Origin: Methylotenera sp.
GTDB taxonomy: Bacteria; Pseudomonadota; Gammaproteobacteria; Burkholderiales; Methylophilaceae
Length of the DNA: 64,000 bases
NCBI GenBank assembly: GCA_014378845.1
Contig: JACMNB010000051.1
Coordinates: forward strand, 43,685 to 107,684
Reading direction: 5' to 3'
Shown: positions 21,661 through 27,720 of the stretch, piece by piece
Layout: each line of letters begins with the position of its first letter
Position numbering within the stretch: position 1 is the first letter of the stretch
The notes under the pieces: model-generated
What the model was told of the DNA's origin: nothing
What the model saw: the letters and a program-made list of their open reading frames with translations, nothing else
The model's database searches: none
Translations under genes and position numbers: made by a program

Positions 21661-23007
21661 TTAAGACTTGCCTTTTTTAACTGCATGCTTCTTATCCAGC
21701 TCACGCAAATGCGCTAATTTTTCCGTAATTTTACCTTCTAAGCCGCGCGGTGTGGGCATATAAAACTGTGGTGCCTTATCTTTTCCAGTTTTTTTATCAT
21801 AGAATTCATCGGGAAAATAATCCACATTGGTTGCATAAGCCTCGGGTTCGTTATGGGCATAACGGTAATCTTTGCCATAGTCTAGCGACTTCATCAGCTT
21901 AGTCGGCGCATTACGCAAGTGTAGCGGCACAGGATGAGATTTGTGATTCGCCACAAAGGTTTTGGCTTGATTATACGCGTTGTAAGCCGCATTGCTTTTG
22001 GGCGCGACGGCTAAGTAAAGCACTGCGTTACTCAGCGCTAATTCGCCTTCTGGAGAGCCTAGACGCTCGTAAATTTGGCAGGCTTCTAAGCACATGCCTT
22101 GCGCACGCGGGTCAGCTAGGCCTATATCTTCAATCGCCATGCGCACTATGCGGCGACCTAAATATAGCGGATCTGCGCCGCCATCGATCATGCGTAAAAA
22201 CCAATACAAAGCAGCATCTGGATTGCTGCCGCGCACCGATTTATGTAGCGCCGAAATTTGATCATAAAATGCCTCGCCGCCTTTATCAAAGCGGCGCAAC
22301 TTGCTCGCCATCGTGGTTTGTAAAAAGGCTTCGTCTATATTTTCAACACTAGCGCTGGAAGCCGCATGGAATAAGGACTCTGCGAAATTGAGTAAACGGC
22401 GCGCATCGCCATCGGCGTAGCCTAGAATTTGCTCTTTTACTGCATCGCTAAAGTTGACATTTTCAGCCACTAGTAAACGTGCCCGCTCTAACAGCAGCGC
22501 GAGCTCTGGCTCAGATAGCGCATTTAACACAAATACTTGTGCGCGGCTGAGTAGCGCGCTATTCACTTCAAACGAGGGGTTTTCTGTGGTCGCGCCAATA
22601 AAGGTAATCAGCCCGCTTTCTACAAATGGCAGAAACGCGTCTTGTTGACCTTTGTTAAAACGATGCACTTCATCTACAAACAAAATCGTTTTGCGACCAT
22701 GTTGCTGCAAAGTTAACTCAGCGCGTTCAACCGCATCGCGAATATCTTTAATGCCACTTAGTACGGCAGAAACCGCAATAAACTCGGCATCAGCCGTGTT
22801 GGCAATTAACCTCGCTAGGGTAGTTTTACCCACGCCTGGTGGACCCCACAGAATCATCGATGGCAACTTACCTGATTGGAATGCTAAACGTAATGGTTTA
22901 TTTTCGCCCAGCAAATGGGTTTGGCCAACCACTTCATCGAGCGTTTTGGGACGAAGTTGTTCGGCGAGCGGGGCTTGCGGTGCGGTAGTTTGAAATAAGC
23001 TATTCAC
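21661..23007 (-). CDS. rarA: Replication-associated recombination protein A (AAA ATPase)
   Basis: LAEQLRPKTLDEVVGQTHLLGENKPLRLAF, MILWGPPGVGKTTLARLIA. Confidence 0.96.
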   Translation of the reverse strand: MNSLFQTTAPQAPLAEQLRPKTLDEVVGQTHLLGENKPLRLAFQSGKLPSMILWGPPGVGKTTLARLIANTADAEFIAVSAVLSGIKDIRDAVERAELTLQQHGRKTILFVDEVHRFNKGQQDAFLPFVESGLITFIGATTENPSFEVNSALLSRAQVFVLNALSEPELALLLERARLLVAENVNFSDAVKEQILGYADGDARRLLNFAESLFHAASSASVENIDEAFLQTTMASKLRRFDKGGEAFYDQISALHKSVRGSNPDAALYWFLRMIDGGADPLYLGRRIVRMAIEDIGLADPRAQGMCLEACQIYERLGSPEGELALSNAVLYLAVAPKSNAAYNAYNQAKTFVANHKSHPVPLHLRNAPTKLMKSLDYGKDYRYAHNEPEAYATNVDYFPDEFYDKKTGKDKAPQFYMPTPRGLEGKITEKLAHLRELDKKHAVKKGKS

Positions 23008-23150
23008 GATAGCTAATTATACCGTGACTTAAATTAAAAGCTAATTAGGTTAAAGCGACTTAAACTTAACGCGTTTAGGTTAAAGCGACTTAAATTTAAC
23101 AGACTTAGGTTAAAGTGATTTGGGTTAAAAAAACTAGGCTAAATAGCAAC

Positions 23151-24608
23151 TTACCAACTAAAATCTTTACCTACGCTAATCGATACAACGGTGCGTTCGT
23201 AACTATTTAAATCAATATTAGAGTCGTTTTTACTGTAACTGATTTGCGGTTTAACAGACCATTATTGAATTGGAAAATAAGTGATGCCAAAAGAGGCGGC
23301 GTATTGACGATCTTTACGTTTCATTAAAAAATTAGTATCGTTTTCGTCATTATCACGTAGTTCAACACCCATTGCGGCTTCCAGCTGCCATTGACTGGCC
23401 AAACTCACTTGGCTACCCATTCTAAAACCTGCTATATCTTGGCTAAATTCTTGTTTAACGGCATTTCGCGCCTCTTCACGGCCGCCATAAATACTGCCAT
23501 AAATTACAGGTGACCAAACACTTTTAAACACATGCCCTGCATTAAAACCAATCACTTTTCTATCCGCATTACGGTCACTATTGCTTGTGTAATTTAAGTG
23601 CGAATATTGCAAGTAAGCGCCCGCTTGATTATTCGCGTTAATATTGTAAAGATATTGTCCGGTTGCGCCGTAGGCGTGACGAAATCCCTCAGAATCCAAA
23701 TCAAAGTGATTATCTTGTAAAGCAACAGTCAAGTTGTGTTCATTTTGCCTGTATTGCAAGCCAGCATTCAAATCTAGCGTACTGTTGTCAAACGCCGTTT
23801 GATTGCCATTAATACGATTTGTGCCGCTTACGCCGCCAAACATTGCAATATTCTCATTAATAGGCTGACGAAACGAAAGCCCGCCCGCTAAGTTCATAAA
23901 ATGATCAGCTTTTGCTTTGCCACTACTGCCTAAATCAGCTAAACGCCCGCCAAACAATGGCACACCAATGGTTAATAAATCTGGCGCGCTATTGACATTA
24001 GAATCACGGCCCAAGCCGAATTCTAAATAAGCGCCAAAGGTTGTGGTTGTACCTTCAGTTTTTTGGATTGCAGTTAATAGTTTTTCGATTGATTTTTTAG
24101 TTTGCGCGTCAGGATTTTGTGCTAAAACGTTGTTAAATTCTGCTTTTGCGGCATCTTTTTCGCCTAGTAAATAATGCGCTTTTGCCATCTCGGCCCGCGC
24201 ATCTTTGTGGGTTGGATTAACTGCTAACACGCGTTCTAATGCAAATGCACCGCGGGTTAAATTGCCACTCTCCACCGCTGCAACGCCCAATAAATAGTCG
24301 TAATCCACATCGCCAGCGCGATTAGCCTCAAGCGGTTCTAACAATTGAAAAGACGCAGTAAACTCATTTTTCATTAGAAGTGCTGCGGCGTCTTGCAGAG
24401 TTTGTGAGCTTAAACTTTTGTCTAGCTGCATTTTACTTTCTGTCGCATAAGCACTAGAAAATGCCAATGGCGCCGCAATCAAAGCACCTAACAAATAAAT
24501 AGGTAATTTGTTGGCGAATGGCTGTTTATCTAGCAGGCGATTTTTTGTTAAATATTTTTTTGGGTGCATTTTGTATGCTGTCGAACTTAATAGGTTGAAT
24601 ATAAACAA
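23151..24608 (-). pseudogene. TPR / surface-lipoprotein-assembly-modifier-like outer membrane beta-barrel protein with in-frame stop near the C-terminus
   Basis: The ORF track ends at 23262 (448 aa, ...GITYFPIQ*). The same frame continues after the TAA as WSVKPQISYSKNDSNIDLNSYERTVVSISVGKDFSW* to 23151, which looks like the missing terminal beta-strands. Confidence 0.75.
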
Positions 24609-24746: not shown

Positions 24747-25370
24747 TCATTCACCCACAATATCAACACCTTTGGGCGGCGTGAATAAAAATGCGGCATC
24801 TTCCAGTACTGGGTTACGCTCAACTGCATCAAACGTAATGTGCGTAATGTGATTAAAACTGTCATACAGTTCCATTTTGCGCAGTTTTTCTTCTTTAAAG
24901 CCCAATAAAACGCGGTCAAAACCGCTGTCTTTGTCTTTTGGCAAAGCTAGCACCCACATTAACCCATCTTTGCGATTAGCATTTTTTAAGGTGAAGCCTT
25001 TATCAACCGCATTGCCACCTGCCAGCATGGCTGCCGGGCTAGAGCCAATAGCTTTACTTAGCGCGCGTACAGTCACTTGCTGCAAATCAGTGTCGTATAA
25101 AAACACATCTTTGCCATCGCTAATTATTTGCTGCTCGTATGGCTTGTTGTAATCCCAGCGGAATTTATTCGGACGCTGTAACTGCATCGTGCCTTCTACT
25201 TCTTGCACTTTTCTACCCTTATTATCGGTAACCATTTGGCTAAATTTTGCGCGCATGGTTTGGGTATTATTAAAAAAATCATGCAGGCTAGAAACACCGT
25301 CAGCAAAGGCGCTTGTTGAAGCGCTAATTACAAATAAAAACAAAAGCTTAACAAACTGGTGTTTAATCAT
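24747..25370 (-). CDS. lolA: Outer membrane lipoprotein carrier protein LolA
   Basis: [47 protein letters not shown]...[22 protein letters not shown]. The ORF track start at 25442 is upstream of the likely start. Confidence 0.94.
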
Positions 25371-27720
25371 CTTGAGAGGAACTACCTTTCGCCAATACTT
25401 CTCTATTACCGTTAGTTTGCATGGCAGACACCAAGCCTGCACGCTCCATATCTTCTATCAAGCGGGCGGCGCGATTATAACCAATACGTAGTTGACGTTG
25501 CACCGACGAAATACTGGCGCGACGAGTCTTTAACACGATTGACACCGCTTCGTCATATAGCGGATCTTTTTCGGCGCCGTCATCGCTACTAAATTCACCC
25601 GCTTCAGCGCCTTCTGTTTCATTGGTCAAAATACCGTCAATATAATTCGGCTCACCCATCGCTTTGAGGTGATTCACTACTTGATGCACCTCGTGATCAC
25701 TCACAAAAGCGCCGTGAATGCGTACGGGGTGGCCAGTGCCTGGCGGCATATATAACATATCGCCCTGCCCTAACAACGCTTCAGCGCCCATTTGGTCTAG
25801 TATGGTGCGCGAATCAATTTTGGATGACACTTGAAACGAAATACGCGTTGGCACATTGGCCTTAATTAAGCCTGTAATTACATCGACAGAAGGCCGCTGC
25901 GTGGCCAAAACCAAGTGAATGCCAGAAGCGCGCGCCTTTTGCGCCAAGCGCGCGATTAATTCTTCCACTTTTTTGCCTACCACCATCATCATATCGGCCA
26001 GCTCATCAATCACCACCACAATGAGTGGCATTTCTTCTAATGGCTCTGGCGCATCGGGCGTTAGGCTAAACGGGTGCGGAATTTTTTCGCCTAATTTTGC
26101 AGCCTCGTTAATTTTTTGGTTATAGCCCGCCAAATTGCGCACGCCTAGGCTCGACATCAGTTTATAACGACGCTCCATTTCATTTACACACCAATTAAGC
26201 GCGTTGGCGGCTTGGCGCATATCGGTAACCACAGGTGCCAGCAAATGTGGAATGCCTTCATACACCGACAGCTCCAGCATTTTAGGGTCGATTAAAATCA
26301 TGCGTACTTTAGACGCCTCAGATTTATACAAAAAGCTTAAAATCAGCGCATTAATTGCCACCGATTTGCCCGAGCCCGTCGTGCCCGCCACCAGCACATG
26401 CGGCATTTTGGCTAAATCAGCGACGACAGGCTTGCCTGCAATATCTTTACCCATAGCAATGGCGATGGGCGAATGCATATCGGCATAGACTTGGCTACCC
26501 ATAATTTCAGATAAAAATACAATTTGGCGTTTTGCGTTTGGTATCTCTAAGCCCATGCAACTTTTGCCAGGAATCGTCTCCACCACGCGAATGCTCACAA
26601 CCGATAGGGCTCGCGCTAGATCTCGCGCCAAGTTGGTGATTTGGCTGCCTTTTACGCCGGCCGCAGGTTCAAATTCAAAGCGCGTAATCACAGGGCCAGG
26701 CTGCGCAGAAATGACTTTAACCTCAATGCCAAAATCGATGAGTTTTCGCTCAATCAAGCGCGAGGTAAAATCGAGCGTATCGGCCGATGGCAGCTCGACT
26801 CTGTTATTGGCTTCGTCCAGCAAATGCAGCGGCGGCAACGTTGAATCTAAATCGGTGACAAAAAGTGCGGTTTGCTTTTCTTTTTGCACGCGCTCGCTTT
26901 GTGCAATCTCAACTACGGGCGCTTTAATTTCAACAGGCGCACGGTCTTCAGTTCGTTTACGCTCTGCATCCACAAATTCTTCACGTTTAAGCTCAACAAC
27001 TTTGCCAGCTTTTCTATCATGCCAATCGTAATATTTGTTTTGCGCCCAATGGTAAGCGCTTATTAAGCCCAAACCCAATTTTTCGGTCATCATAATCCAC
27101 GACCAGCCGGTAAATAAGCTAAAGCCAACGGCAAATAATAGTAGTAGTAGCATGGTAGAGCCCGCATAACCAAACATGCCTCTTAAGCCACTATCAACCG
27201 CATTACCTAGCATGCCGCCCGCCCCTAATGGCAACGTGGCTGGCAGTGCGATTAAGTGGCCTGCTTCTAAACTGCTAGATGCAGCTATTAGCAAACTAAA
27301 ACCAACCAGATTAAACACCAAAAACGGCCGTTCAGAAATCGTGCGCTCTAGCTGCAAATACACTAGCCACATGCTATAAAAAGCCAGCACCACCCACCAC
27401 CAAGCCGAAAACCCGAACAAATACAACAACATATCAGACACCCAAGCGCCTACTGAGCCGCCTGCATTGTTAATTGCAGCGTGATCTGATGCGGTGTGCG
27501 ACCAAGAAGGATCTTGTTTGTAATAGGTAAACAAAATAACGGTGAGATATACACCAAGCAGTACTAAACCCAGCCACCATGCCTCGCGCAATAAATGGGC
27601 ATGTTTTTGTTGGTGTTGCAGTTGCTGCGGCGTTTTAGGTGTTTCTACACGGGCATTAACTGCTGCTGATTTTTTATTAAAAAACAAAGTGTTGTTACCC
27701 TTGTAAAATGATTGATTCAA
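25363..27720 (-). CDS. ftsK: DNA translocase FtsK
   Basis: N-terminal TM region; [26 protein letters not shown]; gamma domain with [35 protein letters not shown]. Confidence 0.97.

Follow-up and report, generated by a model that had tools for sequence, protein, structure and literature searches.

A premature stop codon before the last beta-hairpin of a lolA-linked TPR-SlipAM barrel gene in Methylotenera sp., probably a fairly recent nonsense mutation

Proteins of the DUF560/SlipAM superfamily which carry TPR regions and 14-stranded barrels have been described as outer-membrane proteins of type XI secretion (PMC8406197), Slam and NilB being examples (PMC8406197, PMC12282271). The systems of cluster 3 rarely have a TbpB-type cargo (PMC12282271). 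The BAM machinery recognises its clients through a signal in the final strand (PMC10945584). A broken gene of this superfamily is present in a stretch of 64,000 nucleotides from Methylotenera sp., here called the window. Its protein type shares with the described systems a periplasmic TPR region which is followed by a 14-stranded barrel, and in its relatives the match to the SlipAM profile (PF04575) covers the entire barrel and exceeds the curated cut-off. It differs in that the gene adjoins lolA and rarA, not a gene for a TbpB-like cargo, in the modest PF04575 scores, and in the truncation of the window copy. For the lolA-linked gene, the export of proteins or lipoproteins through the outer membrane is a putative function. 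A search for the TbpB_B_D domain (PF01298) gave no match in 15 genomes of the genus, nor did the control genomes give a signal.

The features of the locus are given in Table 1. On the minus strand the frame reads ...GITYFPIQ, meets the first TAA, continues with WSVKPQISYSKNDSNIDLNSYERTVVSISVGKDFSW and ends at a second TAA. The earlier note, which was made from the sequence alone, had placed an in-frame stop 36 codons before the real C-terminus of an outer-membrane beta-barrel; the sequence is as it described, including the coordinates. The TTG listed as the start (24608) is probably too early; the ATG at 24569 (MHPKKY...) appears to be the better start, since it precedes the signal-like segment and matches the start region of the nearest relative. 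A translational restart at the ATG which overlaps the stop (AATAATGG) was considered and rejected, because this ATG lies in a different frame, which reads MVC and then stops. Scans for promoters and terminators gave no signal exceeding that of shuffled sequences. Between the broken gene and rarA, at positions 23045-23115 of the window, a 30-base tandem repeat of about 2.4 copies (TTAGGTTAAAGCGACTTAAA...) was noted; its 17-base core had no match in the compared loci of other genomes.

Table 1. Features of the lolA-rarA locus in the window (all on the minus strand).
Feature	Position	Strand	Remarks
Truncated ORF, 435 aa	23265..24569	-	signal-like N-terminus, TPR region and strands 1-12 of SlipAM (PF04575) barrel; TPR_19 2.6e-8, SlipAM 3.9e-6
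Premature TAA	23262..23264	-	in turn joining strands 12 and 13; GAT (Asp) in every genus relative compared
Former C-terminal 36 codons	23154..23261	-	strands 13 and 14; end ...SVGKDFSW, similar to BamA beta-signal
Original TAA stop of barrel gene	23151..23153	-	position matches that of the relatives' stop
lolA	24747..25373	-	upstream neighbour of barrel gene, conserved in all relatives checked
rarA/mgsA-type ATPase	21661..23007	-	downstream neighbour; other boundary of the slot

The match of the window protein to PF04575 scored 27.1 bits (curated cut-off 22) and ended at position 244 of the 288 profile positions; those of the relatives scored 35-51 bits and reached 288/288. An AlphaFold2 model of the nearest relative (G008) had 14 strands and a helical TPR region, with a pLDDT of 85.7. 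The column of the stop corresponds to residue 432 of 468 in this model, flanked by strands E413-430 and E433-446, after which strand E453-467 follows. Thus, the stop falls into the turn which joins strand 12 to strand 13 and takes away the whole closing hairpin: the intact G008 protein has both the N-terminal TPR region and the 14-stranded barrel, and the window ORF keeps the part aligned to strands 1-12. CymA (Z 22) and OmpG (Z 21) were the best matches to the model among solved structures. Both are 14-stranded barrels; the resemblance is one of shared fold and shows no function. A search of solved structures by sequence returned almost solely TPR-containing chains. The protein combines a TPR region with a 14-stranded barrel and belongs to the SlipAM superfamily (DUF560, Slam/type XI secretion), and homology, the PF04575 profile and the structure model agree with the proposal of an outer-membrane barrel whose last amphipathic strands and aromatic terminus lie downstream of the stop. 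The broken gene is the single SlipAM copy in the assembly (79 contigs, 2.26 Mb); a second copy which could compensate for it was not found there.

An open frame downstream of a stop is, taken alone, no evidence for a lost C-terminus, since at least 36 open in-frame codons also follow the stops of 8 among the window's 55 non-overlapping genes; this argument was dropped. The comparison with homologues is informative. All 19 full-length relatives from the family can be aligned across the stop column to a common end, ...FxW. In the genus relatives G006, G008, G009 and G010 the frames are open and free of gaps through this column and share this terminus. The tail has 29 of 36 residues identical to those of G008, the part before the stop 314 of 431, so that the tail shows no greater decay than the body. 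Judged from these alignments, the 36 residues after the TAA are the true C-terminus of the gene, and the two marks of a nonsense pseudogene, homologues which are intact past the stop and a homologous downstream sequence, are both present. Since homologues do not end at FPIQ and the 36 residues are similar to those of relatives, both outcomes which the earlier note had named as contradicting its claim are excluded. The terminal S-V-G-K-D-F-S-W of the window copy still fits the BAM signal pattern, with G in a position where 18 of the 19 relatives have R.

The barrel gene occupies a slot between lolA and rarA, which among 15 genomes of the genus was intact in four (G006, G008, G009, G010), broken in three (the window genome G000, G001, G007) and empty in eight, where 22 to 146 bases separate lolA from rarA. 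The remnant in G001 (L043, G001:C2:170562-173439) spans a gap of 916 bases, has lost a large internal portion and survives as short pieces which lie in different frames, with several stops. In G007 (L044, G007:C18:37738-41309) a frameshift is present near codon 200, with one extra A compared to G006 (GATTCTAAATATCAGC); it could be real or an assembly error. One of the genomes with an empty slot, G002, has retained a scar, GCAAAGATTTTAGCTGG, with a 17-base match to the 3' end of the gene (0 of 300 shuffles). In a relative from another genus (g15; L076, G086:C20:98000-101000) the gene is likewise split into two reading frames. Outside the genus, lolA adjoins a TPR-SlipAM barrel gene in 15 of 15 relatives, with the smallest gaps at about 10 bases; therefore, the gene is ancestral at this site and its absences are losses. 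In a tree of rarA, genomes with and without the gene were interleaved, several forks being weak. Repeated loss at the slot is the simplest reading of these sequences. The occurrence of intact, broken and deleted states within one genus marks the protein as dispensable, and its requirement is probably dependent on conditions.

In each of the five genus relatives which were compared (G006, G007, G008, G009, G010) the codon in the stop column is GAT, which differs from TAA in two bases. The single substitution which had been suggested, for example from AAA or GAA, is thus unsupported; the step to TAA requires either a double change or a codon in between. An intermediate should have been easily acquired and harmless, since the column is a variable, tolerant turn position, with D, N, Y, G, K, A or I in the wider family. 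A one-step origin from AAA or GAA is possible, and would require an intermediate which was unobserved in the genus.

The TAA is the one lesion in the window copy. Unique replacements at sites which are invariant in the outgroup numbered 23 in the window copy versus 7 in its sister G008 (binomial p 0.005); the same count in the flanking genes was 2 versus 2 for rarA and 6 versus 2 for lolA. At columns nearly invariant in the 19 relatives the window copy had the changes A>S, Y>F, W>Y, L>F, G>S, D>A and R>G, the sister one change. In a branch codon model omega was 0.142 on the window branch versus 0.093 elsewhere; the difference did not reach significance (p 0.12). A value of omega = 1 on the window branch was rejected (p 1e-6). 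Most of this branch was therefore spent under selection, and since the gene was constrained for so long, the stop should be comparatively recent, although synonymous sites are near saturation and the dating of the inactivation is coarse due to this high divergence. Some relaxation of selection perhaps preceded the stop or accompanied it.

The best explanation, to which a probability of roughly 0.8 is assigned, is that a fairly recent nonsense mutation inactivated a dispensable, repeatedly lost, lolA-linked TPR-SlipAM gene. The nonsense codon lies in the turn preceding the last beta-hairpin, and translation terminates after strand 12, which yields a barrel lacking the closing hairpin and the C-terminal strand for recognition by BamA. 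Such a product would presumably fail to insert into the outer membrane and be degraded in the periplasm, and the window copy has probably lost its function. The test for raised omega, with its p of 0.12, and the presence of a single lesion were counted against this explanation.

Three rival readings (ALTERNATIVES) were weighed. The TAA could be an artefact of sequencing, assembly or strain mixing, with the gene intact in the organism; the assembly is a draft of 79 contigs, the frame has no other interruption and its tail is conserved equally to the body, and selection acted over most of the window branch. However, the codon differs at two positions from that of all relatives of the genus, which makes a sequencing error less likely, as two errors in one codon or the unobserved intermediate would be required, and further decayed copies exist within the genus; an artefact is accordingly considered improbable. 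That the truncated protein of 435 amino acids is still functional, e.g., as a 12-stranded barrel or as a TPR protein of the periplasm, would agree with a body which was under purifying selection during most of the branch and with the lack of a second lesion, but it is very unlikely because the tail is kept in all relatives; its terminal strand also bears the beta-signal on which BAM relies (PMC10945584), and the seven changes at nearly invariant columns of the window copy stand against one in the sister.

A regulated full-length surface protein could arise if UAA were read through in a programmed way, or if the stop were switchable. The tail is in frame and conserved, which a recent mutation also predicts, whereas the stop is unique to the window genome and absent from all relatives, and the repeat scan located neither a simple nor an inverted repeat at the premature stop. 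UAA followed by U, the context present here, is a strong terminator. TAA is also the stop of most genes in the window, so that a general suppression of stops is implausible. This reading is regarded as extremely doubtful, and hardly any credence is given to its variant, in which low-level bypass of UAA or a reversible polymorphism in the population would let a stop codon in the turn preceding the closing hairpin act as the on-off switch of a lolA-linked surface translocon. Among the candidates which the earlier note had listed, a nonsense mutation is thus favoured; for adaptive or phase switching and for readthrough no positive evidence was obtained.

The linkage of lolA, a gene for a lipoprotein carrier, to a barrel of the Slam-type family is an observation in its own right, and its conservation offers a lead to the role of this uncharacterised SlipAM branch. 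The window gene alone is an ordinary pseudogene. With nonsense pseudogenes and gene losses known for accessory outer-membrane proteins of bacteria it shares a single premature stop in an otherwise open frame, and a patchy distribution of intact, broken and empty states in relatives. It has no distinctive mechanism, and differs from such cases in that several stages of loss are found side by side at one locus; the case is one of ordinary gene loss in a known family, with no new mechanism.
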